A DNA stretch of 64,000 bases from Arthrobacter burdickii. GTDB lineage: Bacteria > Actinomycetota > Actinomycetes > Actinomycetales > Micrococcaceae. The notes beneath the pieces were generated by a model. That model saw nothing but the letters and a program-made list of their open reading frames with translations, did not search any database and had not been told where the DNA came from. The DNA lies in the NCBI RefSeq assembly GCF_030433645.1, contig NZ_JAROCG010000001.1:1550001-1614000 (forward strand). Reading direction: 5' to 3'. The position numbers and the translations under genes were made by a program. This document shows, piece after piece, positions 41,641 through 62,896 of this stretch (position 1 is its first letter; every line of letters starts with the position of its first letter).

Positions 41641-42507
41641 GTGCCCCAGGCAGGTTTCGCGCCAGCGGCGCTGCGCATGGTCCATATCTCCCGGCCGGTC
41701 CTCTGGATCAACACCCTGGGCACCGGCGTCGTCGGCATGTGGCTCACGGGCACCTTCTGGGACGCGGGAGTCCTCGCCCTCCTGGTCTGGCTCACGCTGC
41801 CGTTCAACCTGCTCATCTACGGCGTGAACGACATCTTCGACCAGGACACCGACGCACTCAACCCGCGCAAGGGATCGCTCGAGGGCGCCCGGATCCGCGC
41901 CTCCGAGGTCCGGGCCATCTGGCTCTGGGTCCTCGTCACCAACGTGCCGTTCCTCGTCTGGTTCGTGGTGACGCTGACCCCGGCGGCGCTCGCCTGGATC
42001 GCGCTGTACGCGCTCGTCTTCGTCTTCTACTCCACGCCACCACTGCGCTTCAAGGCCCGGCCCTACCTCGATTCGATCAGCAACGCCGCCTACGCCTTCC
42101 CCCTGGTCTTCGTGCCCTATGCGCTCGGCGACGAGCCGGTCTGGGCCGCCGCGATCGGCCTGATGGCCTGGAGCGCGGCCAAGCACACCTACGACGCCGT
42201 CCAGGACATCGACGAGGACAGGGGAGCGGGCATCACGACGACGGCGGTTCGGCTGGGCGCTCGCGGGGTCGTGGCCTGGAGCGGTGCGTGGTGGGCTGCG
42301 GCGACGGTGTGCTTCGCGCTCGTCAACATCCCGGTGGCCGTCGTGAACGCACTCATCGCCGGCTGGCTGCTCCTGGGCCTGTATCGCGACCCGCGCCCCG
42401 AGACGGGCCACCGGCTGTACCGGTACTCCATCGCCTTCCCCTACGTGGCCGGGACCGTCGCCGGCGTGCAGCTCGTGGCCGCCCTGACGCTGGGGCTCTA
42501 CCGGTGA
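41641..42507 (+). CDS. UbiA-family prenyltransferase, lycopene elongase (CrtEb/LyeJ-like)
   Basis: The 288-residue membrane protein of the UbiA superfamily has the first Asp-rich motif NDIFDQDTD (about residues 62-70) and the second DAVQDIDEDR (about 188-197), with YSTPPLRFKARP near 130 and about eight helices. UbiA members next to CrtD-like desaturases are lycopene elongases that add two C5 units to lycopene to give C50 carotenoids. The GTG start has GAGGAGGA eight bases upstream. Its stop overlaps the next start by four bases (GTGA). Context (CrtD-like neighbour, CruF-like gene 2.3 kb away) supports bacterioruberin-type elongation; a quinone role is less likely. Confidence 0.82.
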   Translation: MPQAGFAPAALRMVHISRPVLWINTLGTGVVGMWLTGTFWDAGVLALLVWLTLPFNLLIYGVNDIFDQDTDALNPRKGSLEGARIRASEVRAIWLWVLVTNVPFLVWFVVTLTPAALAWIALYALVFVFYSTPPLRFKARPYLDSISNAAYAFPLVFVPYALGDEPVWAAAIGLMAWSAAKHTYDAVQDIDEDRGAGITTTAVRLGARGVVAWSGAWWAAATVCFALVNIPVAVVNALIAGWLLLGLYRDPRPETGHRLYRYSIAFPYVAGTVAGVQLVAALTLGLYR

Positions 42508-43931
42508 GCCGCGTCGTCGTCGTCGGGGGCGGGATCGGCGGGCTGACCGCCGCCGCGCTCCTCGCCCGGGCGGGCCACAGCGTGACCCTGCTCGAGGCCG
42601 CCGGGCACCTGGGCGGGAAGAGCCGCCGCGTTGAGGTGGCGGGACAGCGCATGGACACCGGTCCGTCCCTGTTCACCTTCCCGGGTGTCTGGGAGGAACT
42701 CCTGCGACGGCTCGACGCCGTCGCACCGTCCGGCTCCGCGAGCGCGGCGGACGTGGCCGACCTCCGCCTGGAGCGGCTGCAGGAGGTCGGCACCTACTAC
42801 TACCGCGGGGAGGAGTGCGCCCTGCCCGTTCCGGAGGGGCACCCCTGGCACGGGGCATGGGAGCGTTTCGCGGCCGAGCACGGCATCCTCGGTGGGGATG
42901 TCTCGAGCCTGCTGACCACGGGACCGCTGGAGCAGGCGTCGTATCCCGCGCTGGCTCGACTGGCCGGAGTGTACGGCCGCCGGCTCACCACGCGGAGCTA
43001 TCTCGACAGCCTGCCCTGGCTGCCCGAGGGACTGCGCGAGGTCATCGCGATCCACACCCTCAACGCGGGCGTCAGTCCCACCCGCACGCCCGCCCTGTAC
43101 GCGAGCATGCCCGCCATCATGGCGAACGACGGCGTCTGGATCCCGGAGGGCGGCGTCTACGAACTGGTGCTGGCACTGGAGCGGTTGGCCGTCGAGGCCG
43201 GCGTGGAGATCCGCACGGGAGAGCCGGTGCAGCGCATCGGACGACGGCGGGTGGTGACCGCCGTCGGCACCTACCCGGCCGACGCCGTCGTCAGCGGACT
43301 CGATGCCTCCCGGCTCACCGGCCTGCTGGCGGGCCGGCGTCCCCGCACCCCGAGGAAGCTCACCTGCTCGGCCGTCGGGATCTACGCCGTCCTCGCCGAA
43401 CCGCTCCCGGAGGGGACCGCGCGCCACGGCGTGATCCTGCCCGACGACCCCGCGGCGCTCTACGCCAGCCTCGAAGCCGGGGACGAGCCGGAGCAGACCA
43501 TGGCCTTCGCCAACTACTACCCCGCCCACGGCGTCTATCCGAACGCGTCGGCGACCCTCGCGCTACTGCTCACCGCTCCGGCGAACGGCAAGAGCTACTC
43601 CCTCGAGGATCCCTTCGTGCGCCGCGAGCTGAACCGGACGACGCGCGTCCTGGGGCTGCCCCTGCCCGTCGAGCAGTACTTCGAGGCCTACGAGATCCTG
43701 GATCCGGGCTACTTCGGCGAGCACGGTTCCGCAGGCGGTGCACTCTACGGAGCCGTCCATCCGACCTGGCGGAGCGGGCCCCTCCACGTCCCGGGCTACT
43801 CGGATCCGCTGCGGCCGTGGCTCTGGCGCGTCGGCGCGTCGGTCCACCCCGGGGGTGGCCTGCCGGCAGTGCTCGGCGGGGCGATGATGTCCACCCAGAA
43901 GCTGCTGGCCCGCCTGGGGTCTCCCGCCTGA
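42504..43931 (+). CDS. CrtI/CrtD-family carotenoid desaturase (FAD)
   Basis: The 475-residue flavoprotein starts with the dinucleotide motif VVVVGGGIGGLTAAALLARAGH and the CrtI-family signature DTGPSLFTFP at about residue 53. The C-terminus ends VGASVHPGGGLPAVLGGAMMSTQ, which is the conserved carotenoid-desaturase tail. It is the second such enzyme in the window, so it is likely to act after the phytoene desaturase. Coupling to the UbiA prenyltransferase fits CrtD, the 3,4-desaturase in bacterioruberin synthesis. A phytoene or neurosporene desaturase is the alternative. The GTG start overlaps the upstream stop. Confidence 0.83.
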   Translation: MSRVVVVGGGIGGLTAAALLARAGHSVTLLEAAGHLGGKSRRVEVAGQRMDTGPSLFTFPGVWEELLRRLDAVAPSGSASAADVADLRLERLQEVGTYYYRGEECALPVPEGHPWHGAWERFAAEHGILGGDVSSLLTTGPLEQASYPALARLAGVYGRRLTTRSYLDSLPWLPEGLREVIAIHTLNAGVSPTRTPALYASMPAIMANDGVWIPEGGVYELVLALERLAVEAGVEIRTGEPVQRIGRRRVVTAVGTYPADAVVSGLDASRLTGLLAGRRPRTPRKLTCSAVGIYAVLAEPLPEGTARHGVILPDDPAALYASLEAGDEPEQTMAFANYYPAHGVYPNASATLALLLTAPANGKSYSLEDPFVRRELNRTTRVLGLPLPVEQYFEAYEILDPGYFGEHGSAGGALYGAVHPTWRSGPLHVPGYSDPLRPWLWRVGASVHPGGGLPAVLGGAMMSTQKLLARLGSPA

Positions 43932-44022
43932 CCGGTGGGACCTGATCGCCGGTGAGACGCTCCGGCGACGGCGCCCGTCCCTTGCCGGCCCTTGCTTCCC
44001 CGTACCTAAGGATCCGAACCTT

Positions 44023-44712
44023 ATGAAGCGCTCCTTTCCCCTGTCAGCACTGACCCTCGTCACGGCCCTCGCCCTCGCCGCCTGCGGCTCCCCGGGCAGC
44101 GGCGATACCCACACCGGCCACACCTCCGGCGCCTCCGCTCCGACCTCCGGCGCGGACGCTGCCACCTCCGGCGCGGATGCTGCGACCTCCGGCGCGGACG
44201 CTCCGCCGGAGGAGCACAACGACGCGGACGTGATGTTCGCGCAGATGATGATCCCGCACCACCGGCAGGCCGTCGAGATGAGCGACATGATGCTGTCGAA
44301 GGACGGCATCAGCACGGAGGTCCTGGACCTCGCGACCGCGATCAGGGACGCCCAGGGGCCGGAAATCGGGACCATGACCGGCTGGCTCGAAGCGTGGGGT
44401 GAACCCCTCGAAGCCGGAGGGAGCATGGAAGGCCACGACATGGGCTCGGACTCCGGCTCGGACTCTGCTTCCGGATCGATGGACGGCATGATGAGCGAGG
44501 ACCAGATGTCCGAACTCGACGCCGCCGAGGGCGATGAAGCATCGCGCCTCTTCCTCGAGTCGATGACCGCCCACCACGAGGGTGCGATCGGCATGGCGCA
44601 AGACGAGATCGACAACGGCCAGGACCCGGAAGCTCTCCGGCTGGCGGAGACCATCGCCGAGACGCAGCAGGCCGAGATCGATCAGATGGCCGGCCTCCTC
44701 GAGCACCTCTGA
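44023..44712 (+). CDS. DUF305-domain lipoprotein with His/Met-rich core
   Basis: The 229-residue secreted lipoprotein has a signal peptide with lipobox LALAAC (Cys about 21). A Thr/Ser/Gly/Ala linker contains three copies of TSGADA(A). A DUF305 ferritin-like four-helix domain follows, with paired motifs MFAQMMIPHHRQAVEMSDMM near 75 and FLESMTAHHEGAIGMAQDE near 185; a Met/Asp-rich insert (EGHDMGSDSGSDSASGSMDG) lies between them. His/Met patterns suggest binding of copper or another metal. TAAGGATC lies upstream. It lies between the CrtD-like and CruF-like genes but its link to carotenoids is unproven. Confidence 0.85.
   Translation: MKRSFPLSALTLVTALALAACGSPGSGDTHTGHTSGASAPTSGADAATSGADAATSGADAPPEEHNDADVMFAQMMIPHHRQAVEMSDMMLSKDGISTEVLDLATAIRDAQGPEIGTMTGWLEAWGEPLEAGGSMEGHDMGSDSGSDSASGSMDGMMSEDQMSELDAAEGDEASRLFLESMTAHHEGAIGMAQDEIDNGQDPEALRLAETIAETQQAEIDQMAGLLEHL
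44143..44205 (+). repeat. Three 21-base tandem repeats in the DUF305 linker
   Basis: Units start at 44143, 44164 and 44185, each encoding TSGADA plus A or P. Differences are at third positions. Confidence 0.85.
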
Positions 44713-44787
44713 TCGGTTCCGCGCCTCCTGTCGGCAACGGGGGAGCCACCCCGTCCCTGGAGGAGGGGCGGCCGTTCCGGGGCCGAG

Positions 44788-44815
44788 GCGCCTGCTCAGT
44801 GGCGCCTGCTCAGTG
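44788..44815. repeat. 14-base tandem duplication over the CruF stop codon
   Basis: Two identical copies of GCGCCTGCTCAGTG lie at 44788-44801 and 44802-44815. Each carries a TCA, the complement of the stop codon TGA. Confidence 0.85.
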
Positions 44816-45622
44816 GCGCGGCGCTGCGAGTCCTGTCGTGCCGGCAGGCACGGGGTCGACCGCACGCGCGAGCTGCAGGCGTCGTCGCACCAGCAGGACG
44901 ATCAGGCCGGCGGCGAGCACGGCGGGGAAGACGAGCCCCGAGAAGATGCAGACACCCAGCCACAGGAACATCGAGACGAGCAGGCTGTCGAGCAGGCCCG
45001 GTCGCAGCACCCGGTCGGTGAGGCGACGCCCCCCGATCCCCGTGACGAGCGCCGAGGCGATAAGCCCCGAAAGCAGCCATCCGCCGTAGTTCGAGAGCGG
45101 GACCCCGTAGTAGGGGCCGCCGCCCTCCCAGATCCAGAAGCCGAGGGCTACGGCTCCCGGATCCAGGACGCCGTCGATGACGACCAGCAGTAGTCCACCG
45201 AGGACGATCCTGCGCAGGGCCGTTCCGGTGCCCGACACGGCGGCCACCGCGCCGATCACCAGCGGGACGTAGGAGAGCGGCAGCAGGTACGGCACGAGGC
45301 CGAGGATCGTGGGACCCAGCGGATCCCCGTAGTGGAAATCGCCGTAGGGCACGCCCGTCGCGACGCCGAAGCCTTCGATCAGGTAGCCGAAGACGGAGAC
45401 CGCCACCAGTGCTGCCGCGCCGCGCGCGGCGCCGAACTGCCGTACCAGGGCGATGAACGCCGGCAGGGCGATCAGCAGGTTGAAGCCGTAGGACGCATAG
45501 CTCGCGCCTTCCACGTCCGGGAACCGCACCACGAAGTAACCGGAGATGAAGAGGAACGCGCAGGACGCGATGAGCAGGCGGGGGAAGCTGCGGGTGGTGG
45601 AGGTCTTCGGCACGGCATCCAT
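44810..45622 (-). CDS. cruF: CruF-like carotenoid 1,2-hydratase (DUF422)
   Basis: The 270-residue polytopic membrane protein matches the DUF422/carotenoid biosynthesis family. The family stretches are visible: GYLIEGFGVATGVPYGDFHY (about 80-99), LVVIDGVLDPGAVALGFWIW (about 146-165) and GGGPYYGVPLSNYGGWLLSG (about 167-186), with about seven helices. In haloarchaea the CruF member hydrates bisanhydrobacterioruberin to bacterioruberin. It is convergent with the DUF305 gene; UbiA and CrtD-like genes lie 1.7-3.2 kb away on the other strand. Family is certain; the exact carotenoid substrate is inferred. Confidence 0.85.
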   Translation of the reverse strand: MDAVPKTSTTRSFPRLLIASCAFLFISGYFVVRFPDVEGASYASYGFNLLIALPAFIALVRQFGAARGAAALVAVSVFGYLIEGFGVATGVPYGDFHYGDPLGPTILGLVPYLLPLSYVPLVIGAVAAVSGTGTALRRIVLGGLLLVVIDGVLDPGAVALGFWIWEGGGPYYGVPLSNYGGWLLSGLIASALVTGIGGRRLTDRVLRPGLLDSLLVSMFLWLGVCIFSGLVFPAVLAAGLIVLLVRRRLQLARAVDPVPAGTTGLAAPRH

Positions 45623-45657
45623 CCTTGCAGGTACACGGTGGTCCTGGACGCAAGAGG

Positions 45658-45699
45658 AAGGGGCATCCGCGGGAGTGAACTGGTCCCCGGATGCCCCTT
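45658..45699 (-). terminator. Hairpin downstream of the small PspC gene
   Basis: A 12-bp stem (45658-45669 with 45688-45699) encloses an 18-base loop with a further short pairing. It lies 21 bases beyond the stop at 45720 on the minus strand. Confidence 0.6.
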
Positions 45700-45719
45700 G
45701 TGTTCGTTCGGTGCGGTCC

Positions 45720-45962
45720 CTAACGGTGCCTGAGGAGCTGCTCCAGGGCGATGCTGCCGTCGGTCTTGGGCAGCAGGAGCCAGAGGACCAGGTAGAGCGG
45801 GAGGCCGATGAAGGGGAGGAGGAAGCTGAGCAGCATGGCGATGCGGACGTAGCTCACGCGCCAGCCGTACTGCCGGGCGATGCCGGACGCGATGCCGCCG
45901 AAGATGCCGCCGGGAGCCCGCTTGATGGGGGAGGAGCGGAGGAAGCTGTAGAGGGATTGCAT
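45720..45962 (-). CDS. Small PspC-domain membrane protein (80 aa)
   Basis: The 80-residue protein is a single PspC domain: GGIFGGIASGIARQYGWRVSYVRIAMLLSFLLPFIG, then a second hydrophobic helix and LVLWLLLPKTD. PspC proteins sense envelope stress in the membrane. The ATG at 45962 has GAAAGG eight bases upstream; the frame extends to 46055 but lacks a plausible start there. It is the third gene of a minus-strand operon with the 84-residue protein and the 562-residue PspC protein. Confidence 0.82.
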   Translation of the reverse strand: MQSLYSFLRSSPIKRAPGGIFGGIASGIARQYGWRVSYVRIAMLLSFLLPFIGLPLYLVLWLLLPKTDGSIALEQLLRHR

Positions 45963-46068
45963 CGGAGTGCCTTTCGATCGGGACGGAGGTTGGAACGAGG
46001 GAAGGGATCTGGAAGGGATAGGGGAAGGATAGGGAGAAGCGGATGGTTCTGACATGGCCGGTATCCGC

Positions 46069-46323
46069 TCAGTATTCCGGAGCGTGGACCGCGTCGTCGT
46101 CCTGGCTGTCGGTGGTCGTGCGGGTCCGCAGGGACAGGATGCCCCCGGCGACGAGCGACAGTCCGACGCCGATGAGCAGGCCGAGCGCCACCACCACGGG
46201 GTCGATGTCGAGTGTGACGAACTGGCCGAGCAGGACCAGGCCTGCGACCGCGAGGATCACAGCCCCCCACACGATGGTGACGACGCGTGGACGGCGTTGC
46301 GGTCCGGTGATCGAGGTGCTCAT
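46069..46323 (-). CDS. Small membrane protein in the PspC operon (84 aa)
   Basis: The family is not recognised. The 84-residue product has two transmembrane helices (about 15-35 and 42-63) and a hydrophilic Thr/Asp-rich C-terminus (RTRTTTDSQDDD). Its ATG overlaps the stop of the large PspC protein by four bases (ATGA), so the two are translationally coupled. It presumably works with the PspC proteins. Confidence 0.7.
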   Translation of the reverse strand: MSTSITGPQRRPRVVTIVWGAVILAVAGLVLLGQFVTLDIDPVVVALGLLIGVGLSLVAGGILSLRTRTTTDSQDDDAVHAPEY

Positions 46324-48008
46324 GGTGTGTCTCCTGTACGGGTGGTGCCGGTGCTCTGCGGCGGGAAGGTGCCATCGATTCCGGTACCGGTATCAATACC
46401 GGTACCGGTTGCGGTGAGGATGGTGAGGTTGCTCAGGGCGCCCCTCACATCGAGGATCAGGGCGGCTCCTGTCGCGTCGGGGTTCAGCTGGCCCCGGCCC
46501 AACTGGAGGACGCCTCCGTCGCCCCGGAAAGCGGGCGACAGGGTGTCCGGGTCCGCCGTCGTTCCCAGGGCGTCCGCATTGGCGAGGGCCATCCGGGTGC
46601 GTACCTCGACGGGCACGTCCTCCGGAACGATGACGGTGACGTCACTGGCGAGGGAGTTCACCGGGACCACGACGTCCTGTGCGGGTGAGGGCAGGCCGGC
46701 GAGGTCGATCGTGGCCTGCGCTGCCATGACGCTGTAGCCGTCGGACGCCGCCTGGAGTGATGCCGGCGTGGTCGTCGTCTCCTGCGCGACGACCCAGGAG
46801 CCACCGACGACGGTGAGGGACGCGATGAGCGCGCCGATGGTTGCGAGCGCAGCTGTGACGCCCACGAGGCCCGAGCTCCGTCCCCGCACGCCCAGTCCGA
46901 CGATGCCGAGCGCGAGCACGATGGCGGCTGCCGCGAGCGCCACCGCGGCGGCGTTGGCGACGTCGAGGATGCGCGTGTAGTCCAGCACGAGGAGGACCGC
47001 CGCTGTGATGGTCGCCCCGCCGAGAAGGAGGGCCGTCACCGATCCGGAGGGCCGGATGCGGTCGGCTCGGTGGTTCCGGATGGCTGGCGGGAGGTTCTCC
47101 GGTCCCCCCGGGCCCTTGGACCACGCGGCGTCGGCCTCCGGATAGCCGGACCCCGCGGCCCAGGGCGCCGGCTGGTAGGGCAGCGGGTAGGTCTGCGTGT
47201 AGGGCCGCGGGTAGGACTCGGTGTCATTCTCCGAAGAGGACTGCTGGAAGGGTTCCGGAGAGTGCTTCGCAGGCGCCTCGGGGGAGCCCGGGGCGGGATC
47301 GCCGTCCACGTCTCCGGGGTCGGATCCGGTTGCATGCTTCCCGGAGAAGGCGGACGCGCCGGTTGCTCCTGACTGTCCGTCACCGGGCCCGGACGGGCCG
47401 CTGGAGGAGCCGGGCGCCGGTGTCACCGGGGATTCCGCCGGCCCGTAGGGCATCGGGCCGAAGGGCTGCGGCTGGCCGGGTCCACCGCCGGTGGGGCCCG
47501 GGTACGGGCTGCCGGGACGGGAGCCGCCCCTGCCGGAGCGATTGACGATCCAGTAGACGAAGAGGACGACGGCCCCGATCCAGAACAGCGTCCACAGCAG
47601 GCCACCGGCACCGCCGTCATGCGCGGAGACGTCCGGGCGCCACAGGCCGATCGCCACGAGCACGGCGGCTCCCGTCAGCCCGGAGGTCCAGGAGCCCCGT
47701 CCGGCCTGCTCCACATGGATGCGCCCATCGGGTTCCGGCAACAGTGCCCAGGCGAGCCCGTACAGCAGGACGCCGATACCGCCGAAGACCGCGAGGACCA
47801 CGATCAGGCCGCGGACGAGGGCCAGATCGAGGCCCGTGCGGCGGGCGACGCCACCTGCGACACCTCCCACCCAGCGGTCGGGCGTCCGGGTGATGTCGAG
47901 ACCCCGGATCCAGCGGAAGAACGAGGACGAGGCGGGAGGTTCCGCCTGATGGGATGCGGCCGGTTCGTGCTGCCAGGACGGCCCGCCTGGTGAGGGTGCT
48001 GAAGTCAT
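46320..48008 (-). CDS. Large PspC-domain membrane protein with LiaF-like tail
   Basis: The 562-residue protein begins with a PspC domain (about 38-100, RWVGGVAGGVARRTGLDLALVRG and LYGLAWALLPE). It continues with a further helix at about 110-160 and a long Gly/Pro/Ser-rich linker (about 165-320), then four hydrophobic helices (about 325-420). It ends in a soluble beta-rich domain with VVPVNSLASDVTVIVPEDVPVEVR, which resembles the LiaF/DUF4097-type stress-sensor tail. AGGATAGGAG lies before the ATG. It is divergent from the sensor kinase across 124 bases holding three direct repeats. A role in envelope stress signalling is inferred. Confidence 0.82.
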   Translation of the reverse strand: MTSAPSPGGPSWQHEPAASHQAEPPASSSFFRWIRGLDITRTPDRWVGGVAGGVARRTGLDLALVRGLIVVLAVFGGIGVLLYGLAWALLPEPDGRIHVEQAGRGSWTSGLTGAAVLVAIGLWRPDVSAHDGGAGGLLWTLFWIGAVVLFVYWIVNRSGRGGSRPGSPYPGPTGGGPGQPQPFGPMPYGPAESPVTPAPGSSSGPSGPGDGQSGATGASAFSGKHATGSDPGDVDGDPAPGSPEAPAKHSPEPFQQSSSENDTESYPRPYTQTYPLPYQPAPWAAGSGYPEADAAWSKGPGGPENLPPAIRNHRADRIRPSGSVTALLLGGATITAAVLLVLDYTRILDVANAAAVALAAAAIVLALGIVGLGVRGRSSGLVGVTAALATIGALIASLTVVGGSWVVAQETTTTPASLQAASDGYSVMAAQATIDLAGLPSPAQDVVVPVNSLASDVTVIVPEDVPVEVRTRMALANADALGTTADPDTLSPAFRGDGGVLQLGRGQLNPDATGAALILDVRGALSNLTILTATGTGIDTGTGIDGTFPPQSTGTTRTGDTP

Positions 48009-48052
48009 GCTCCTATCCTTCTGGTGGCGGCCGGGTGCGACTATCGGGGCCT

Positions 48053-48081
48053 ACCCTGAGCGGACCCTGATTACACCCTGA
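48053..48081. promoter_or_regulatory. Three ACCCTGA direct repeats at 11-base steps
   Basis: Identical heptamers lie at 48053-48059, 48064-48070 and 48075-48081, each one helical turn apart, in the divergent region between the PspC operon and the sensor kinase. The unit is ACCCTGA plus four variable bases. This is a candidate binding site for the LuxR-type regulator encoded at 49533. Confidence 0.65.
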
Positions 48082-48132
48082 TTGGCATCGGGGAACGGCC
48101 CCGAGCGCCCGCCGTCGTGCTTGGATGGGGGT

Positions 48133-49440
48133 ATGAGACCCCCGCTGCTGCGCAGATCCGACGGCGTGATCGCCGGCGTCTGTGCCGGGCTCGCCGTGCA
48201 CCTCGGGGTCAAGCGCTCCTGGGTCCGCATCGGCATGGCCGTGCTGACCCTGGCGTCCGGCGCCGGGGTCTTCCTGTACGCCTGGCTCTGGATCTTCGTC
48301 CCGACGGCGGCGGACAAGGCCGCGGAGCACGGACGGCCGACAGGCCCGGCCGCCTTCATGCAGGACGTCGGCGCGAAGAACGGGAAGACTCGGTCGGACG
48401 CGCAGGCCGGCGCAGCCGCATCCCGTCCGGCGGCAGGCCCGTTCGATCCCGAGTCATGGCGCGAGCGGACGCTGCGCGCCGGGCGGCGGGAGGTCCTGTT
48501 CGGTACGGTGCTGCTGGTCGCGGCGGCCGTGATCGTGGTGCAGTTGCTCGGGCTGCCGGTGAACTGGGGCTTCCTCGTCCCGATCGCCGTCGTGGCGACC
48601 GGCGCCGCCCTCGCATGGTCCCAGCTCGACGCCGTGCGCAGGGCCAGGGTCATGAACCGTGCGGGGGCCGGACGGGCGGGCGGGGTGCTGCGCCTGCTCG
48701 CGGGCATCGTGCTCGTCATCGCCGGCGTACTCGTCGCCCTGTCCAGCAGCGGCTCGTGGACTCTGACCATGGCCACCCTCGTCGCGGTGCTCGCCGTCCT
48801 CGCCGGCGTCGTCCTGGTCCTCGCGCCGTGGGGCCTCAAGTTCTGGCGCGATCTGGAGACGGAGCGGGCAGCCCGTGTGCGGGAGACGGAGCGTGCCGAG
48901 ATCGCGGCCCACCTGCACGACTCCGTCCTGCAGACCCTCGCGCTCATCCAGAACCGCGCGGACTCCGAGACGGACGTGCTGCGCCTGGCGCGTGCGCAGG
49001 AGCGGGAACTGCGCCAGTGGCTGTTCGCCGATCCGGCGAGGGACCCCGGCAGCCTCGCCGAACGCCTCCGCGGGATGGCGGGCGAGATCGAGGACCGCTA
49101 CGGGCATCCCGTCACGGTCGTCGCCGTCGGCGATGCAGTGCTGGGGGCGGGCGAGGACGCCCTGGCGCAGGCAGCGAGGGAAGCGATGCTGAACGCGGCG
49201 AAGCACGCGGGAGGCGCCGTCTCCGTCTACCTCGAGGCGGGCCCGGACTCCGTGGAGGTGTTCGTTCGGGACAGGGGCAGCGGCTTCGACCCGGCAGCGG
49301 TCCCGGCGGACCGCCTCGGGATCCGGGAATCCATCACCAGCAGGATGCTCCGCCATGGTGGATCCTCCGAGCTGCGCAGCGACGGGGACGGCACCGAGGT
49401 ACGGCTCCGGCTGCCACGGCAGGCCGGAAGCGCCGCGTAG
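48133..49440 (+). CDS. PspC-domain sensor histidine kinase (HisKA_3 type)
   Basis: The 435-residue kinase has an N-terminal PspC domain (about 5-60, LRRSDGVIAGVCAGLAVHLG and YAWLWIFVPT), a linker, four further hydrophobic helices (about 118-240), and a HisKA_3 dimerisation domain with AEIAAHLHDSVLQTLALIQ (phospho-His about 260). A C-terminal HATPase domain follows with EAMLNAAKHAGG and DRGSGFDPAAVPADRLGI. It has the pattern of LiaS/MacS-like envelope-stress kinases. It is probably paired with the LuxR-type regulator 92 bases downstream and divergent from three PspC/companion genes. Confidence 0.88.
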   Translation: MRPPLLRRSDGVIAGVCAGLAVHLGVKRSWVRIGMAVLTLASGAGVFLYAWLWIFVPTAADKAAEHGRPTGPAAFMQDVGAKNGKTRSDAQAGAAASRPAAGPFDPESWRERTLRAGRREVLFGTVLLVAAAVIVVQLLGLPVNWGFLVPIAVVATGAALAWSQLDAVRRARVMNRAGAGRAGGVLRLLAGIVLVIAGVLVALSSSGSWTLTMATLVAVLAVLAGVVLVLAPWGLKFWRDLETERAARVRETERAEIAAHLHDSVLQTLALIQNRADSETDVLRLARAQERELRQWLFADPARDPGSLAERLRGMAGEIEDRYGHPVTVVAVGDAVLGAGEDALAQAAREAMLNAAKHAGGAVSVYLEAGPDSVEVFVRDRGSGFDPAAVPADRLGIRESITSRMLRHGGSSELRSDGDGTEVRLRLPRQAGSAA

Positions 49441-49532
49441 GCCACCGCGGGGCACGGCAGGGGCACGGCCGGGAACGACAGAGGCGCGACAGAGGGAACA
49501 ACGGCCGGGAAACGGCGAGGAAGAGGGAGCAC

Positions 49533-54748: not shown

Positions 54749-54792
54749 GTTTAAGGGAGTCCAGCCCGGCCGGGACCCCGACCGGGTAGGGC

Positions 54793-54798: not shown

Positions 54799-54804
54799 CG
54801 GCGC

Positions 54805-55896: not shown

Positions 55897-55903
55897 CGTG
55901 GAT

Positions 55904-55932
55904 TTGGTCGAACCCGCAGAGTCACGTAGGCT
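55904..55932 (+). promoter_or_regulatory. Promoter of rplJL
   Basis: TTGGTC (55904-55909) and TAGGCT (55927-55932) with a 17-base spacer would give a leader of about 220 bases before rplJ. Confidence 0.55.
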
Positions 55933-55938
55933 TTAACT

Positions 55939-56160
55939 ACCAAAGACCGTCGGTCGATCCATCTCCCCTTCCTGCAGCGCACTCCTGCGCGGCCCGGAAA
56001 AGGAACAGGATCCGAAAGTTCCCGTGAGGGACGGCCTACGCAGGTGAACGAAGCTCCTCTCCACCGGCCTGTGCCCGTGTCGAGCAAAGCCCCGTGCATC
56101 TGCGCGGGGCGTTTTTTATTGGAGCTGGAAGACCGGCGCATATTCCCCGGAAGGAGGGTT
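55939..56160 (+). promoter_or_regulatory. L10-type leader of rplJL
   Basis: The untranslated leader has motifs typical of ribosomal L10 leaders (AGACCGTCGGTC and GGCCTACGCAGGTGAA). In bacteria the L10-L12 complex binds such a leader to repress its own operon. The leader contains an intrinsic terminator (56089-56117), which implies attenuation or readthrough control. Confidence 0.6.
56089..56117 (+). terminator. Attenuator hairpin upstream of rplJ
   Basis: A 9-bp GC-rich stem (56089-56097 with 56102-56110) is followed by G and six T residues, then the rplJ ribosome-binding site about 30 bases later. This is an intrinsic terminator inside the leader. Confidence 0.8.
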
Positions 56161-56760
56161 ATGGCAACGCCAACAAAGGTTTCTGCAGTGGACGAGATCA
56201 CCACCGATTTCAAGGACTCCACCGCGGCTGTCCTGACCGAATACCGCGGGCTCACTGTTGCTCAGCTCAAGGAACTGCGCCGTGCCCTTGGCACGGACAC
56301 GAAGTTCTCCGTCGTCAAGAACACCTTGACGGGCATCGCGGCAAAGGAAGCCGGCATCGACGCGTTCGATGGCCAGCTGTCCGGACCCACCGCGATCGCC
56401 TTCATCAAGGGTGACGCCGTTGCTGCGGCCAAGAGCCTCACGGATTTCGCGAAAGCCAACCCGAAGCTCGTCATCAAGACTGGAATCTTCGAGGGCAAGG
56501 CCCTCGACGCATCCGAGGTCGTTGCCCTGGCAGCCCTCGAGTCGCGCGAACTCCAGCTCGCCCGGGTGGCAGGTGTCCTCAAGGCGCCGATGTCCGCCCT
56601 GGCCCGCAGCGTCGATGCACTGCGCATCAAGCTCGAGGAGGGAAGCGGCGCTGCACCTGCAGCCGACGCTGACGCTCCTGCTGCCGAGGAAGCCGCTGCT
56701 CCTGCAGAAGCTGCCGCGGAGGCTCCCGCCGAGGAAGCCGCAGCAACCGAAGCGAACTAG
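56161..56760 (+). CDS. rplJ: 50S ribosomal protein L10
   Basis: The 199-residue L10 anchors L7/L12 to the stalk. The start MATPTKVSAVDEITTDFKDS leads to AVLTEYRGLTVAQLKELRRAL, GPTAIAFIKGD and KTGIFEGKALDASEV. A long Ala/Glu/Pro-rich tail (about 165-199) is typical of actinobacterial L10. AGGAGGG lies five bases before the ATG. Expression is likely controlled by the leader and attenuator upstream. Confidence 0.96.
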   Translation: MATPTKVSAVDEITTDFKDSTAAVLTEYRGLTVAQLKELRRALGTDTKFSVVKNTLTGIAAKEAGIDAFDGQLSGPTAIAFIKGDAVAAAKSLTDFAKANPKLVIKTGIFEGKALDASEVVALAALESRELQLARVAGVLKAPMSALARSVDALRIKLEEGSGAAPAADADAPAAEEAAAPAEAAAEAPAEEAAATEAN

Positions 56761-56817
56761 TTTCGCTTCGATCCCCACACTCCGGTGCAGTGCACCACTA
56801 AAGGAAGGACGCCTCCC

Positions 56818-57198
56818 ATGGCGAAGCTCACCAACGAAGAGCTCATTGAAGCTTTCAAGGAACTGTCCATCATTGAACTCTCGGACTTCGTAAAGCTGTT
56901 CGAGGAGACCTTCGATGTCACCGCTGCTGCAGTTGCAGTTGCAGGCCCCGCCGGTGGCGGAGCCGGCGAAGCCGCCGAAGAGGAGCAGACCTCCTTCGAC
57001 GTCGTCCTCGAGGCTGCTGGCGACAAGAAGATCGCAGTGATCAAGGAAGTTCGCGCCCTCACCTCGCTGGGCCTGAAGGAAGCCAAGGACGTTGTCGACA
57101 GCGCCCCCAAGGCCGTCCTCGAGGGCGTCACCAAGGAAGCTGCAGACAAGGCCAAGGAGGCCCTCGAGGCCGCCGGCGCCACCGTCACCCTCAAGTAA
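56818..57198 (+). CDS. rplL: 50S ribosomal protein L7/L12
   Basis: The 126-residue stalk protein recruits translation GTPases. The N-terminal dimerisation part, the Ala/Gly-rich hinge ([18 protein letters not shown]) and the globular C-terminal domain ([30 protein letters not shown]) are all present. AAGGAAGG lies before the ATG; an earlier in-frame start at 56785 is unlikely. A perfect 19-bp terminator follows, and the next rightward ribosomal-cluster gene (rpoB) is 6 kb away. Confidence 0.97.
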
Positions 57199-57244
57199 CA
57201 CCCGCTGCACCCGCAGCCCGGCGAAGGCCGGTGTTGCCGCAGTA

Positions 57245-57286
57245 CACGAAAGAGCCCCGCTTCTCGCGAAGCGGGGCTCTTTCGTG
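57245..57286. terminator. Bidirectional terminator between rplL and the thiolase gene
   Basis: A perfect 19-bp stem (57245-57263 with 57268-57286) closes on TCGC, with T- or A-rich edges on both strands. It separates the two convergent genes. Confidence 0.92.
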
Positions 57287-57303
57287 TTCCGGGCCGGAGC
57301 CGC

Positions 57304-58503
57304 TCAGCGCCAGAGGAGGAGGGCTTCACCCTGGCCGCCGCCGCCGCAGAGGCTCACGGCGGCCTTCCCGGTGCCCCGGCGGGCCAGCTCCATCGCGGCG
57401 TGGAGGGCGAGCCGTGTACCGGACGCACCGATGGGGTGCCCGAGTGCGATGGCCCCTCCATGGATGTTGCACTTCTCGAGCGGGTAGTCGAGGTCCTTGA
57501 GGGACTGGACGGCCACGGACCCGAACGCCTCGTTGATCTCGATGAAGTCGAGGTCTCCGGCCGTCCAGCCGGCCCGCCCGAGGGCCTGCTTGATCGCCTC
57601 GGACGGCTGCGAGTGGAGCGTGTTGTCCGGTCCCGCGACCTGGCCCGGCCGCCCGACGACGGCCAGCACCGTCAGTCCGGATTCCTCGGCGTAGGAGCGT
57701 GTGGTCACGACGAGCGCCGCGGCGCCGTCGGACAGGGGCGAGGAGTTGCCCGCCGTGATCGCGCCGTCCGGATTGAACGCCGGCCGGAGCTTCGCGAGGG
57801 ACTCGACGGTCGTGGCCGGCCGGATACCTTCGTCGCTGGTGAGGACGACGTCGTCGCCCTTGCGCTGCGGCACCCGGACCGGGACGATCTCCTCGGTCAG
57901 CACGCCGCTGTCCGTCGCGGCGGCCGCACGCTGGTGCGACGCCGCCGCGACCCCGTCCTGGGCCGTGCGGTCGATCTCGAGACGGACGTTCCCGCGCTCC
58001 GTCGACGCTCCCATCGACTCGTCGTCGAAGGCATCGGTCAGGCCGTCGTGCGCCACCGAATCGAGGGCGGGAATGGACCCGTAGGTCCAGCCCTGGCGGG
58101 AGCCGGGCAGCAGGTGGGGTCCGCGGGTCATCGACTCCTGGCCTCCGGCGACGACGACGCGCGCCTCGCCGCCGCGGATCAGGCGGGCGGCGTCGATCAC
58201 GGCGGTGAGGCCGGAGAGGCAGACCTTGTTGACGGTGACGGCCGGGACGTTCCAGGGGATGCCCGCCTTGACCGCGGACTGCCGGGCCGGGTTCTGGCCG
58301 CAGCCGGCCTGGACCACGTGACCCATGATGACGGCGTCCACGGCGGAGGCAGCGACGCCCGCGCGCTCCAGCGCTCCCGTGATGGCCAGTGCGCCGAGCT
58401 CGACGGCGGTGAAGGAGGCGAGCTGCCCGTTGAGGCGCCCGAGGGGTGTGCGGGCGCCGCCGACGAGGACGACGTCGTCGGGGGATGGCGTGGGTGTCGC
58501 CAT
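57304..58503 (-). CDS. Acetyl-CoA C-acyltransferase (thiolase)
   Basis: The 399-residue thiolase joins or cleaves acyl-CoA units. The nucleophilic Cys is in NKVCLSGL near residue 92, the catalytic His in ALGHPIGASGTR near 353, and the second Cys in SLCGGGGQGEAL near 385. A biosynthetic acetoacetyl-CoA thiolase is plausible. It runs opposite to rplL and sits 79 bases past the end of idi, in the same direction as idi. An operon with idi is likely. A link to isoprenoid supply is possible, but actinobacteria of this kind normally use the MEP pathway. Confidence 0.88.
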   Translation of the reverse strand: MATPTPSPDDVVLVGGARTPLGRLNGQLASFTAVELGALAITGALERAGVAASAVDAVIMGHVVQAGCGQNPARQSAVKAGIPWNVPAVTVNKVCLSGLTAVIDAARLIRGGEARVVVAGGQESMTRGPHLLPGSRQGWTYGSIPALDSVAHDGLTDAFDDESMGASTERGNVRLEIDRTAQDGVAAASHQRAAAATDSGVLTEEIVPVRVPQRKGDDVVLTSDEGIRPATTVESLAKLRPAFNPDGAITAGNSSPLSDGAAALVVTTRSYAEESGLTVLAVVGRPGQVAGPDNTLHSQPSEAIKQALGRAGWTAGDLDFIEINEAFGSVAVQSLKDLDYPLEKCNIHGGAIALGHPIGASGTRLALHAAMELARRGTGKAAVSLCGGGGQGEALLLWR

Positions 58504-58582
58504 GGCGAAACTCTCTTTCGTCGTTGAAATGGTGCCGCTACCAGACTAGGACTTTTTGGTGGCGCTTCCGCTGCGCCGCCGT

Positions 58583-59191
58583 TCAGGGGACGTCGCGGGG
58601 TCCGGGGCCGTCGGCGCCCTCCGGGTAGAGCAGGGGGAGCTGCAGGGTGAGCCAGGGACTGAACGCCCACGGCGTCGCGGTGACGGCACGTACGAGTTCG
58701 CGTGCGTCGACCCACTGGTAGTCCATGACCTCGGCGGGCAGCGGAGCCACGGGGCTGTCCGCCACGGCCGTGTAGACGGGGCAGATCTCGTTCTCGACGA
58801 TGCCCGAGGCGTCCACGGCTCGGTACCTGAACTCCGGCAGTGCGGGTCGGATGTCCGCGACCCTGAAGCCGAGCTCCTGGGCCGCGCGCCGCTGGACGGC
58901 GTCCTCGAACGGCTCGTCCGGTGCGGGGTGCCCGCAGAAGGAGTTGGTCCAGACGCCGGGCCAGGCCTTCTTGCCGAGGGCGCGGCGCGTGACGAGGATG
59001 CGACCGGCGTCGTCGAACACGTGCGTGGAAAAGGCCAGGTGCAGGGGGGTGTCGAGCGTGTGGACGGTCGCCTTGGGGTGCGTTCCGACGGGAGTGCCGT
59101 CCTCGGCGAGCAGCACCACGACCTCGGTCTCCGGACCCGTACCGCCGTCGATGCCCGTCCGCTGCGCCGTATATCCTGCTTCGCTCGCCAT
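58583..59191 (-). CDS. idi: Isopentenyl-diphosphate delta-isomerase, type I
   Basis: The 202-residue Nudix-fold enzyme interconverts IPP and DMAPP. TPLHLAFSTHVFDDAGR, WPGVWTNSFCGHPAPDE (catalytic Cys and metal His) and DAVQRRAAQELGF (Nudix Glu set) are visible, as is EVMDYQWVDARE near 160. The ATG complement lies at 59189-59191; the frame extends to 59488 without good starts. It is divergent from crtE, so the two share a 121-base control region. Confidence 0.92.
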   Translation of the reverse strand: MASEAGYTAQRTGIDGGTGPETEVVVLLAEDGTPVGTHPKATVHTLDTPLHLAFSTHVFDDAGRILVTRRALGKKAWPGVWTNSFCGHPAPDEPFEDAVQRRAAQELGFRVADIRPALPEFRYRAVDASGIVENEICPVYTAVADSPVAPLPAEVMDYQWVDARELVRAVTATPWAFSPWLTLQLPLLYPEGADGPGPRDVP

Positions 59192-59312
59192 CGTGGCACT
59201 CTTTTCGCTGATCGTCCGTGCGGTACGCGGGGTTCGCTCCAGCCGGGTGGCCGGCCCGGCTGTATACACCCGACGTGTCGTCAGGGCGCCATATCCGTTG
59301 TTTACTTTACCT
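59192..59312. promoter_or_regulatory. Divergent idi/crtE control region
   Basis: The region holds a perfect palindrome TGTATACA (59261-59268), and a TTTAC-TTTAC tandem (59301-59310) right before crtE. Read toward idi, the latter contains TAAAGT, a possible -10. A MarR- or MerR-type regulator site is possible, but no regulator gene is nearby. Confidence 0.4.
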
Positions 59313-60380
59313 ATGGACATGGACACTCTGCTGGTCGAGCCCGCCGGGCTCGAACAGGTCGAGAGTGCGCTCGAGCGGTTCTTCGAGGAGTCCAAGGCCC
59401 GTGCCGCGAGGATCGGACCGGGGTACCACGCCCTCTGGGAGACCCTCGAGCGGTGTACCGCCGGCGGGAAGCGATTCCGGCCCCGCATGGTGATGTCCGC
59501 CTACCAGATGCTCGGCGGCCGCGACCTCGCCAATGCGGCCGAGGTCGGTGCTGCCTTCGAGCTGCTCCATACGGCCCTGATCGTGCACGACGACGTGATC
59601 GACCGCGACTTCGTCCGCCGCGGGATCCCCAACGTCTCCGGCCGCTACCGCACCATCGCCGAGGGGGCAGGCATGTCACCCGAGGGAGCACATCACGTCG
59701 GCCTCTCCGCCGGGGTCATCGCCGGGGACCTGGCGCTCTCGAACGCCTACCGGCTGCTCGAGCGGGTCGAGGCGCCCCCCGCCGTTCGACGCCGGCTCGG
59801 GGACATCCTCGACGAGGCGGTCTTCGCGTCCGCCGCGGGGGAGTTCCTCGACATCGAGACCTCCCTGGATCCGGCCATGCCGTCCCTGGAGGCCATCGTC
59901 GACATGGCCCGGCTCAAGACCTCCGTCTACTCCTTCGAGGGACCCCTCCAGGCAGGTGCCGTCCTCGCCGGCGCCGACGAGGAGCTCATCGCCCGCCTCG
60001 GCGATTTCGGGCGGGACGCCGGCATCGCCTACCAGATCGCCGACGACCTGCTCGGTGTCTTCGGGAACGAGACGCGCACCGGGAAGACGAACTGGGGAGA
60101 CCTGCGCGAGGGCAAGCGGACCGCGCTCCTGTCCTACGTCTCCGCGCGGCCGGAATGGGAGGACATCTCGGCCCTCGTCGGCAGTCCCGGGATGTCGGCG
60201 GCGGACGCCGACTTCGTCCGGCGCATCCTCGTCGACAGCGGTGCCAAGGACTACTCCTCGGACCTCGCCGCCGAGTACGCCGCACGCGCCCGCACCCACC
60301 TCGACTCCGACGTCGTGCCCTCCGCACTGCGGTCCGCCCTCCACCCCGTGGTGACGGCCGTCGTGGACAGGGTGCACTGA
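59313..60380 (+). CDS. crtE: Geranylgeranyl diphosphate synthase
   Basis: The 355-residue trans-prenyltransferase makes GGPP from IPP and allylic diphosphates. The first Asp-rich motif LIVHDDVIDRDFVRRG (about 90-105) and the second YQIADDLLGVFGNE (about 243-256) are intact, as is GKRFRPRMV near 52. The start is the ATG at 59313, with another ATG six bases on. It abuts crtB with no gap and lies divergent from idi. Family members called IdsA share this pattern, so chain length is inferred from the carotenoid context. Confidence 0.93.
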   Translation: MDMDTLLVEPAGLEQVESALERFFEESKARAARIGPGYHALWETLERCTAGGKRFRPRMVMSAYQMLGGRDLANAAEVGAAFELLHTALIVHDDVIDRDFVRRGIPNVSGRYRTIAEGAGMSPEGAHHVGLSAGVIAGDLALSNAYRLLERVEAPPAVRRRLGDILDEAVFASAAGEFLDIETSLDPAMPSLEAIVDMARLKTSVYSFEGPLQAGAVLAGADEELIARLGDFGRDAGIAYQIADDLLGVFGNETRTGKTNWGDLREGKRTALLSYVSARPEWEDISALVGSPGMSAADADFVRRILVDSGAKDYSSDLAAEYAARARTHLDSDVVPSALRSALHPVVTAVVDRVH

Positions 60381-61280
60381 GTGGGCGTGAACGATCCGCT
60401 CGCACGCTACAACGCGGCAGCGCTCAAAACCTCCGCGGAGGTCATCCGCTGCTACTCGACGTCCTTCGGCATGGCCTCGCGCATCCTCGACCGCACCACG
60501 CGCGCCTCCATCGAGTCCGTGTATGCGCTGGTGCGCGTCGCCGACGAGGTCGTGGACGGCGCCGCTGCCGGAGCTGGGCTGCCGGTGGACGAGGTCGGAC
60601 GACTCCTGGACGACCTCGAGCGTGACACCGAGACGGCCATGACCACCGGCTACAGCACAAACCTGGTGGTGCACGCCTTCGCCCTCACGGCACGGGCCAC
60701 GGGCATCGGCGTCGACCTCACCCGGCCCTTCTTCGCCTCCATGCGCGCCGACCTCACCCGGAGCGAGCACACGCAGGAGTCCTTCGACCTGTACGTCTAC
60801 GGGTCCGCGGAGGTCGTCGGGCTGATGTGCCTGCGGGCCTTCCTCGTCGGCCGGACCGGAACGCCGGAGGAGGACGCCGTGCTCGTGGACGGCGCGAGGC
60901 ACCTCGGCGCCGCCTTCCAGAAGATCAATTTCCTCCGGGACCTCGCCGAGGACTTCTCCACCCTCGGCCGCAGCTACTTCCCGGGCGTGCGGCCGGGGAA
61001 CTTCACGGAGGCGGACAAGATCCGCCTCCTGGACGACATCGACCGGGACCTGCGCATCTCGGCCGCCGCGCTCCCGGGCCTGCCCCCGACGCCGCGGCGC
61101 GCCGTCACCCTCGCACAGGGACTGTTCACCGAGCTCGCCGCCAGGCTGCGCCGCACGCCGGCCGACGAACTCCTGCGGGCGCGGGTCCGGGTGCCCACCC
61201 CGGTCAAGCTCCGCATTCTGGCGCAAGCCTTCACCGGTCGCGCGGCACCGGAACTCGCCGCGCAGGAGAGGTCGGCATGA
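60381..61280 (+). CDS. crtB: Phytoene synthase
   Basis: The 299-residue enzyme condenses two GGPP into phytoene. Squalene/phytoene synthase motifs are YALVRVADEVVDGAAAG (first Asp motif near 55) and QKINFLRDLAEDFSTLGRSYFPG (second near 180). The GTG start directly follows the crtE stop; a GTG six bases later (MNDPLARY) is also possible. Its stop overlaps the crtI start by four bases. Confidence 0.94.
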   Translation: MGVNDPLARYNAAALKTSAEVIRCYSTSFGMASRILDRTTRASIESVYALVRVADEVVDGAAAGAGLPVDEVGRLLDDLERDTETAMTTGYSTNLVVHAFALTARATGIGVDLTRPFFASMRADLTRSEHTQESFDLYVYGSAEVVGLMCLRAFLVGRTGTPEEDAVLVDGARHLGAAFQKINFLRDLAEDFSTLGRSYFPGVRPGNFTEADKIRLLDDIDRDLRISAAALPGLPPTPRRAVTLAQGLFTELAARLRRTPADELLRARVRVPTPVKLRILAQAFTGRAAPELAAQERSA

Positions 61281-62896
61281 CACCCCAGCAGAGCGGGCGG
61301 ATACGCGTGGCAGCCAAGGACGTCGTCGTCATCGGCGGCGGGATCGGCGGGCTCGCGACGTCGGCCCTGCTGGCCCGTGAAGGGCACAGCGTCACCCTCC
61401 TGGAGAAGCGCGGACAGGTGGGCGGCCGCGCCGGTTCCTGGGAGCAGGGCGGTTTCCGCTTCGACACCGGCCCGTCCTGGTACCTGATGCCCGAGGTGAT
61501 CGACCACTTCTTCCGGCTGATGGGCACGAGCGCCGCGGAGCAGCTCGACCTCGTGAAGCTCGATCCCGGCTACCGCGTCGTCTTCGAGGAGGGCGGGGCG
61601 GTCGACGTCCCCGCGGACCGGGAAGCCGTCACCAAGCTTTTCGAATCCCTCGAGGCCGGCGCCGGCGAGCAGCTGTCGAAGTACCTCGACTCCGCGGAGG
61701 ACGCCTACGAGATCGCCAAGAAGCGTTTCCTCTACTCGACCTTCCAGTCCTTCCTGCCCTTCGTCCGGCCCGACGTCCTCGCCCGGCTCCCGCGGATCGC
61801 GTCGCTGCTCCTCCAGCCGCTGCAGTCCTTCGTCGAGAAGCGCTTCCAGGACCCGCGCATCCAGCAGATCCTCGGCTACCCGGCCGTGTTCCTCGGCAGC
61901 TCGCCCTTCGACGCGCCGAGCATGTACCACCTGATGAGCCACCTCGACCTCGACGACGGCGTGCTCTACCCGATGGGCGGTTTCAGCACCCTCATCGACG
62001 GGATGCGCCGGGTGGCGGTGGCCGCCGGCGTCGAGATCCGCACCGACGCCGACGTCGTCTCGATCGACACCGAGCCCCGGACGCCCGGCAGGTCCCCCCT
62101 CGACCGCCGGGCCGCGACGGTGCGCGGGGTCACCTACCGCACGAACGGTACGACGACGTCGATCGGTGCCGACATCGTCGTGTCCGCCGCGGACCTCCAC
62201 CACACCGAGACCACGATGCTGCCGGCGGACCTGCAGACGTACCCGGAGGGGTACTGGCAGAAGCGCGTGCCCGGTCCCAGTGCGCTGCTCCTCTACCTGG
62301 GCGTCCGGGGAAGCCTGCCGCAGCTCGAACACCACACCCTGCTGTTCACGACGGACTGGCGCGACAACTTCGGGCGGATCTTCGGCAAGGAGACCTCCGT
62401 GCCGTCACCGGCATCGCTGTACGTGTGCCGCCCGAGCGCCACGGACGGTTCCGTGGCCCCAGCCGGCCACGAGAACGTGTTCGTTCTCGTGCCCATCCCG
62501 GCGGACGTCACGATCGGCAGGGGAGGGCTCGAGCGCGGGGGAGACGCGAGGGTCGAGGACCTGGCCGACGCCGTCATCGGCCAGATCTCGGAGTGGGCAG
62601 GTATCCCCGATCTGGCCGAGCGCATCGTCGTCCGCCGCAGCTACGGGCCGCAGGACTTCGCCGACGACCTCAATGCGTGGCGCGGTACGTCGCTCGGTCC
62701 GGCGCACATCCTGAAGCAGAGCGCGTTCTTCCGCGGCTCGAACCGCAGCGCGAAGGTCGGCAACCTCTTCTACGCGGGGAGTTCCACGGTTCCCGGCATC
62801 GGCATCCCCATGTGCCTCATCAGTGCGGAACTCATCGTCAAACGGCTGCGCGGCGACACCAGCACGGGGCCGCTGCCGGAGCCTGCCGCCGGGTAG
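61277..62896 (+). CDS. crtI: Phytoene desaturase (CrtI type)
   Basis: The 539-residue FAD enzyme converts phytoene to lycopene in successive desaturations. The dinucleotide site is VVVIGGGIGGLATSALLA (about 17-34), followed by GGRAGSWEQGGFRFDTGPSWYLMPEV. The C-terminal signature is NLFYAGSSTVPGIGIPMCLISAEL. The start overlaps the crtB stop. No lycopene cyclase follows; rpoB starts 313 bases downstream, so lycopene is presumably handed to the distant UbiA/CrtD/CruF locus. Confidence 0.95.
   Translation: MTPQQSGRIRVAAKDVVVIGGGIGGLATSALLAREGHSVTLLEKRGQVGGRAGSWEQGGFRFDTGPSWYLMPEVIDHFFRLMGTSAAEQLDLVKLDPGYRVVFEEGGAVDVPADREAVTKLFESLEAGAGEQLSKYLDSAEDAYEIAKKRFLYSTFQSFLPFVRPDVLARLPRIASLLLQPLQSFVEKRFQDPRIQQILGYPAVFLGSSPFDAPSMYHLMSHLDLDDGVLYPMGGFSTLIDGMRRVAVAAGVEIRTDADVVSIDTEPRTPGRSPLDRRAATVRGVTYRTNGTTTSIGADIVVSAADLHHTETTMLPADLQTYPEGYWQKRVPGPSALLLYLGVRGSLPQLEHHTLLFTTDWRDNFGRIFGKETSVPSPASLYVCRPSATDGSVAPAGHENVFVLVPIPADVTIGRGGLERGGDARVEDLADAVIGQISEWAGIPDLAERIVVRRSYGPQDFADDLNAWRGTSLGPAHILKQSAFFRGSNRSAKVGNLFYAGSSTVPGIGIPMCLISAELIVKRLRGDTSTGPLPEPAAG

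Follow-up and report, generated by a model that had tools for sequence, protein, structure and literature searches.

The window examined is a 64,000-nucleotide stretch of the 3.95 Mb Arthrobacter burdickii genome (G000; contig NZ_JAROCG010000001.1, positions 1,550,001 to 1,614,000), and it carries genes for a predicted acyclic C50 carotenoid pathway at two loci. The late locus (41641-45622) is composed of lye, crtD, a copM-like gene, and cruF. The early locus (58583-62896) is composed of idi and a crtE-crtB-crtI run that stands directly before rpoB. Gene calls and family scores place both loci where a preliminary description of this DNA had located them, and the separation of about 14 kb given there was measured as 13,690 bp from cruF to crtE. 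The two loci, the gene identities, and the spacing are confirmed. The six enzyme families expected of a complete early and late route to an acyclic C50 pigment are all present, divided between two loci as described. Judging from the sequence, it is very likely that these two loci form one pathway leading to bacterioruberin. The features are listed in Table 1.

Table 1. Genes of the late and early carotenoid loci, with positions in the window and the basis of each assignment.
Gene and product	Position	Strand	Basis
lye, UbiA-family lycopene elongase/hydratase	41641-42507	+	actinobacterial clade, PRK13595; GTG start
crtD, divergent CrtI-superfamily desaturase (actinobacterial D-type)	42504-43931	+	clade membership, lye adjacency
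copM-like, DUF305 lipoprotein; lies between crtD and cruF	44023-44712	+	NF049983, PF03713
cruF, DUF422/PF04240 bisanhydrobacterioruberin hydratase-like membrane protein	44810-45622	-	PF04240
idi, isopentenyl-diphosphate isomerase, divergent from crtE	58583-59191	-	NF002995
crtE/idsA, polyprenyl (GGPP) synthase	59313-60380	+	PF00348
crtB, phytoene synthase	60381-61280	+	PF00494
crtI, phytoene desaturase (to lycopene)	61277-62896	+	TIGR02734

The early proteins score well above the cut-offs of their families. Idi has 260.7 bits on NF002995 (cut-off 127), CrtE has 160.4 bits on PF00348 polyprenyl_synt (cut-off 27), CrtB has 116.5 bits on PF00494 SQS_PSY (cut-off 26), and CrtI has 578.7 bits on TIGR02734 phytoene desaturase (cut-off 238.1). 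The whole genome contains three UbiA matches, one CrtI-family match above cut-off, and one PF04240 match, which is cruF. TIGR03462, the heterodimeric-type lycopene cyclase, has no match in this genome (four candidates scored; the CrtY/CrtL and CruA types were not searched).

At the late locus, the lye and crtD reading frames share 4 bp, and cruF is convergent with both. Lye contains two Asp-rich motifs, NDIFDQDTD and DIDED, and the motif columns are invariant in an alignment of seven. Both the motifs and the coupling of this UbiA gene to a second CrtI-family gene are as first described. Curated models split the UbiA elongases into three groups (PRK13595, PRK12875, and PRK13105). Lye scores 430.5 bits on PRK13595 (NF010119, actinobacterial lycopene elongase), which exceeds the cut-off of 248 by about 180 bits. 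It is below the cut-offs of PRK12875 (NF009516; 177.2 bits, cut-off 205) and PRK13105 (NF009608, CrtEb-type; 157.6 bits, cut-off 217). PRK12875 was taken as the haloarchaeal LyeJ family from the scores of the Halarchaeum (397 bits) and Halocatena (426 bits) proteins. Elsewhere, PRK13595 gives 410 bits in G090 (Rubrobacter marinus family), 424 in Kocuria rosea, and 460 in Curtobacterium, and the CrtEb of one genome of the genus (G028) scores 461 bits on PRK13105. Lye passes none of the listed quinone or heme UbiA cut-offs. The two other UbiA proteins of the genome are located elsewhere and are distant from Lye in the tree, so a grouping with menaquinone or heme enzymes, which would have spoken against the preliminary description, was not seen. 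A phmmer search for a solved structure of Lye returned no match.

The same layout and gene assignment have been published before: A. agilis and A. bussei carry idi-idsA-crtB-crtI and lye-crtD-cruF as two clusters (PMC9122864). The window is a further member of this group, and the pathway is not new. Silencing of crtB, as reported there, brought bacterioruberin below detection and left no colony formation at 10 °C. A. agilis DSM 20550 (L140) and A. bussei KR32 (L146) have the late-locus gene order of the window, which differs from them in the added CopM gene between crtD and cruF.

By analogy, Idi and CrtE would supply geranylgeranyl diphosphate (GGPP), from which CrtB would form phytoene and CrtI lycopene. 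Lye would attach two C5 units at the ends of lycopene and hydrate C1. These additions would alternate with desaturations by the D-type CrtD, which would introduce the 3,4 double bonds and yield bisanhydrobacterioruberin. CruF would then hydrate both isopentenyl ends to give bacterioruberin. The order of C5 additions and 3,4-desaturations to bisanhydrobacterioruberin, followed by CruF hydration, is that of PMC9122864, where it is given for Arthrobacter by homology and from cited haloarchaeal work. Every catalytic step and the final pigment proposed here are drawn from these sources, and what was observed directly is gene identity at family level, the conservation of the genes and their side-by-side placement, and that inside the genus they do not occur together with the cyclic C50 set. 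The best evidence for linkage of the two loci comes from an uncultured Micrococcaceae (L164), in which all six genes lie in one cluster with lye-crtD facing cruF-crtI-crtB-crtE.

The genus was sampled with 38 genomes, the window's included. PF04240 is present in 25 (acyclic) and TIGR03462 in 11 (cyclic). No genome has both, and two have neither (G017, and G020 with 68% completeness). The exclusion has a Fisher p of 6.5e-8, a value that overstates the case because the genomes are related and have one common history. All 25 acyclic genomes contain Lye at 77-100% identity (in two pieces in G025) and a D-type CrtD, and cruF lies on the crtD contig within about 4 kb in each of them. The 11 cyclic genomes contain only a CrtEb-like UbiA with 32-38% identity to Lye. 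A D-type CrtD match at E 1e-30 or better occurs in every acyclic genome and in none of the cyclic ones. CrtI is present in 36 of the 38. Different Arthrobacter species are known to make bacterioruberin or decaprenoxanthin (PMC11731199). Judged by title and abstract opening, no paper listed in the literature searches concerned an acyclic/cyclic gene divide in the genus or D-type CrtD as a separate lineage, subscription papers being mostly outside reach.

CrtD of the window is under the cut-off of every named CrtD model, with 128.6 bits on NF045637 (cut-off 580), 99 on NF042421 (cut-off 500), and 50 on TIGR02733 (cut-off 549.7). It scores 108.6 bits on the bifunctional CrtID model NF058655 (cut-off 640) and 125.1 on TIGR02734 (cut-off 238.1). 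Four D-type proteins were scanned (window, G048, L164, and Clavibacter), and none passed a desaturase cut-off among the rows listed. In the desaturase tree, the 32 D-type rows group as a single clade (100/100), and the two haloarchaeal CrtD rows join 15 CrtI rows (100/99). By scores and tree, the window protein does not correspond to haloarchaeal CrtD and belongs to a separate actinobacterial clade, so the haloarchaeal-like second desaturase of the preliminary description does not stand. The grouping of haloarchaeal CrtD with CrtI fits PMC11946383, in which a Haloarcula "CrtD" proved to be a bifunctional CrtI/CrtD.

A scan of genome contigs with the D-type alignment returned 135 relatives; the 80 best were retained. 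All 80 of these named loci have a Lye homologue directly before the D-type crtD. The closest named relative among the matches listed is Arthrobacter agilis strain 4041 (CrtD 95%, Lye 95%). PMC11946383 suggests that a bifunctional CrtI may be at work in Rubrobacter radiotolerans and Curtobacterium flaccumfaciens, as each has one CrtI copy. D-type CrtD is present besides CrtI in Rubrobacter marinus (its CrtI in two pieces) and in three Curtobacterium genomes. These findings bear on that suggestion, R. radiotolerans and C. flaccumfaciens themselves being outside the genomes examined.

CruF scores 162.4 bits on the broad family PF04240 (cut-off 25) and 144.8 on TIGR03460, slightly below the cut-off of 154.7. 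On the haloarchaeal CruF model NF041333 it has 134 bits against a cut-off of 300, and Halarchaeum CruF has 377.5. The reading of the DUF422 protein as CruF therefore holds for PF04240 and falls a little short for TIGR03460. The broader description of the late steps as haloarchaeal-like is borne out by the superfamilies that Lye and CruF have in common with haloarchaeal LyeJ and CruF, and does not extend to the curated cut-offs of those families.

Within the fetched stretches, cruF is present in L164 and in the loci of Arthrobacter and Rubrobacteraceae. It was not seen in the other fetched loci (Kocuria, Microbacteriaceae, Cellulomonas, and some others), where some stretches are shortened by contig ends. 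A whole-genome PF04240 search of 23 Lye-CrtD genomes found it in two (that of L164, and Rubrobacter marinus) and not in the other 21 (genome completeness not given). These 21 are 4 Kocuria, 3 Cryobacterium, 3 Microbacterium, 2 Clavibacter, 1 Frigoribacterium, 3 Curtobacterium, 1 Planctomonas, 3 Cellulomonas, and 1 Rathayibacter. Bisanhydrobacterioruberin is therefore the predicted product in them. PMC9616409 describes, for a Kocuria, trisanhydrobacterioruberin and a derivative of bisanhydrobacterioruberin. Among genomes drawn from the phylum, 85 of 396 contain PF04240, and no Lye is nearby in 10 of 10 PF04240 loci (L126-L135) fetched outside family f18, which is Rubrobacteraceae-type.

Some points weigh against the proposed pathway. 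CrtD is far below all named CrtD cut-offs, CruF is just below that of TIGR03460, and PF04240 alone is no proof of a bacterioruberin hydratase, given the ten Lye-free loci. A further one is that a bifunctional CrtI, like that of Haloarcula in PMC11946383, could perform the 3,4-desaturation. CrtI would then act both from phytoene to lycopene and at the 3,4 position, with the D-type protein otherwise engaged or assisting only, an arrangement that is unlikely here. Bifunctionality was shown for two Haloarcula enzymes (C0507, first named CrtD, is a CrtI/CrtD), and CrtI of the window has 40% identity to its Halarchaeum counterpart and 505.1 bits on the CrtID model. This score is below the cut-off of 640, however, and a cyclic-pathway genome has a CrtI with almost as many bits (474), so the CrtID score is no mark of bifunctionality. 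The constant position of D-type crtD after lye in the named loci, and its restriction to the acyclic genomes, also argue against a bifunctional CrtI.

Less probable again is a pathway that halts at bisanhydro- or monoanhydrobacterioruberin, with the CruF-like protein having some other activity. The two missed CruF cut-offs and the PF04240 loci without Lye would fit such a halt, and PF04240 is not essential to the module, since it was not found in the 21 other Lye-CrtD genomes searched. Against it, cruF stays close to crtD throughout the acyclic genomes and beside lye-crtD in Rubrobacteraceae, and both bisanhydrobacterioruberin and bacterioruberin were detected in earlier work cited in PMC9122864. 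Although the UbiA and FAD-oxidoreductase superfamilies are broad, a chance grouping of quinone, heme, or other isoprenoid genes is already contradicted by the PRK13595 score, by the distance of the two other UbiA proteins, and by the mutual exclusion with the cyclic C50 set.

The lyeJ-crtD-cruF genes of haloarchaea (Halarchaeum L111 and Halocatena L112) are expected to have the same chemistry as the late locus. Halarchaeum and the window share 37% identity in Lye over the aligned part and 47% in CruF over 162 aligned columns. The haloarchaeal genes differ in that Lye belongs to another curated family, CrtD groups with CrtI, and the genes form one co-directed run. The Rubrobacteraceae set (named loci of the D-type scan and family f18, which includes the Rubrobacter marinus contig) is at 66-74% for Lye, 56-69% for D-type CrtD (some partial), and about 47-61% for CruF. 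Its cruF is divergent from lye-crtD, whereas that of the window is convergent.

The Lye and D-type trees were built from a chosen part of the 80 loci. In the Lye tree, 12 CrtEb rows form one clade (100/100) and four haloarchaeal rows form another (100/99). These two stand together opposite the actinobacterial Lye rows and the two distant paralogues of the window's own genome (branch 96/96). The bootstrap had not settled and two outgroup rows have a branch length of 10, and for this reason the root position among the actinobacterial Lye rows was not used. The D-type tree unites the Micrococcaceae in a single clade (97/99) and nests Kocuria within Arthrobacter. A simple haloarchaeal origin of the late genes was rejected on family scores and trees. 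Transfer of the module from Rubrobacteraceae was raised because another class has Lye at 66-74%, and it is not claimed because neither the Lye tree, mostly open near its base, nor the D-type tree points to a donor. Base composition contains no transfer signal (GC of lye 0.70, crtD 0.73, and cruF 0.70, with 0.69 for the window).

A backbone tree of eight proteins from 31 genomes places 20 acyclic and 10 cyclic genomes on opposite sides of one branch (100/99). In the crtE, crtB, and crtI tree (34 rows, 5 outgroups), the acyclic genomes form one group (100/99) and the cyclic genomes form two (each 100/100). Absent from both trees are G024 (crtI and crtB broken), G020, G021, G025, G029, G030, and G033, and G036 is in the backbone tree only. 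The early genes therefore give the same groups as the backbone and follow the genus, and the difference, which needs one change, is in the late module. In G024 (L284), crtI has an in-frame stop and is in pieces, crtB is also in pieces, and the PF04240 match is short; this is possibly a pigment-less strain or a poor assembly.

The gene order pfkA..pspC..aspC-nusG-rplK-rplA..rplJ-rplL-thiolase-rpoB is kept in 10 fetched cyclic genomes and in G017, with the stretches of G026 and G017 ending before pfkA. In the window the thiolase/rpoB site holds crtE-crtB-crtI, as it does in every one of the 20 acyclic relatives, out of 24, whose loci were fetched. In three cyclic genomes (G014, G023, and G026) it holds crtE-crtB-crtI, a cyclase pair, and CrtEb. 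In G028 it holds crtE-crtB-crtI-CrtEb, with the cyclase pair elsewhere. Cyclase pairs between crtI and CrtEb were located by setting TIGR03462 positions against those of CrtEb and CrtI. This decaprenoxanthin-type operon has crtE-crtB-crtI genes homologous to those of the window, in the same site in three genomes, and differs in that CrtEb (PRK13105, tested for G028) and the cyclases replace Lye, CrtD, and CruF. A second lycopene-cyclase pair lies away from the crt operon in G014, G023, and G026, and G028 has the distant pair only.

No lye, crtD, or cruF was found between pfkA and pspC in any cyclic genome whose stretch reaches pfkA. This site is variable within the genus. The pfkA-pspC spacing is about 150 bp in G031 and G036. 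The two genomes inspected there, G011 and G028, have by eye an ABC transporter and a sensor kinase at the site (L253 3555-6639, L247 11283-14555). On the acyclic side, lye and crtI are on a common contig in 22 of the 25 genomes and are 16.0-33.8 kb apart, which makes the two-locus split a fixed feature of this group. It is reasonably probable that crtE-crtB-crtI is a thiolase/rpoB-site operon that follows the genus tree, and that the late genes are a separate pfkA-side module that one branch has instead of CrtEb and the cyclase pair. The two-locus split may then mark an exchange of late modules against a conserved early operon.

Several results weigh against such an exchange. Six of the 11 cyclic genomes (G011, G012, G031, G035, G036, and G037) have no crt gene at the thiolase/rpoB site. 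Their cyclic clusters are elsewhere, were fetched for five, and in G036 lie on a different contig from rpoB. The cyclic cluster of G030 is present and unplaced, since rpoB was not found there. No CrtEb or cyclase remnant was found between crtI and rpoB (best matches 9-11 aa, E 3.4-7.2), a stretch in which the rpoB leader is conserved. Because no remnant is visible, loss of CrtEb and the cyclases from the rpoB site can only be inferred. L164, the nearest outgroup in the crt tree, is itself acyclic, so the exchange may have gone either way. The acyclic/cyclic exclusion is not universal. In Kocuria rosea, Lye-CrtD stands next to a crtE-crtB-crtI cluster that includes a CrtEb-like protein and what by eye look like cyclases. 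With L164 acyclic and K. rosea seemingly having both sets, it is just as possible that the ancestor had both and that one was lost later. A. glacialis is also cited in PMC11731199 as making decaprenoxanthin and bisanhydrobacterioruberin.

The K. rosea locus (L156) has, at 7398-8702 on the minus strand, a 434-aa frame that by eye resembles a cyclase subunit fused to CrtEb and is the opposite-facing neighbour of lye-crtD.

With these points included, the balance tips slightly toward a combined reading. D-type CrtD would be a separate 3,4-desaturase lineage that forms, together with Lye and with or without CruF, an exchangeable late module. Within this one genus, the module would have been swapped once with the CrtEb-cyclase module over an inherited early operon, and CruF would decide between bacterioruberin and bisanhydrobacterioruberin across Actinomycetota. 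The report on A. glacialis and the existence of PF04240 loci that lack Lye lowered the exchangeable-module reading a little.

Two further observations concern the late locus. The CopM-like protein scores 102.3 bits on NF049983 (cut-off 90) and 167 on PF03713 (cut-off 27). A copM/DUF305 metallochaperone-like gene between crtD and cruF was found in the window and in G003, which are 2 of the 25 cruF-centred stretches of the genus (about 3.5 kb around cruF), and CopM was rejected as a pathway member. Record WNZI01000028.1 (L162), titled Vibrio cholerae strain 35D, contains an Arthrobacter-type lye-crtD-cruF (CrtD 86%), with lye and crtD each in two pieces. It is mislabelled, and its genome is placed in the genus of the window.

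The D-type protein is the probable 3,4-desaturase of Actinobacteria, and it is not the haloarchaeal one. The presence of CruF offers a testable predictor of whether bacterioruberin or bisanhydrobacterioruberin is the pigment. These comparative points are modest but testable. The single acyclic/cyclic C50 divide within the genus would be a good system for the role of pigment type in cold and light tolerance.

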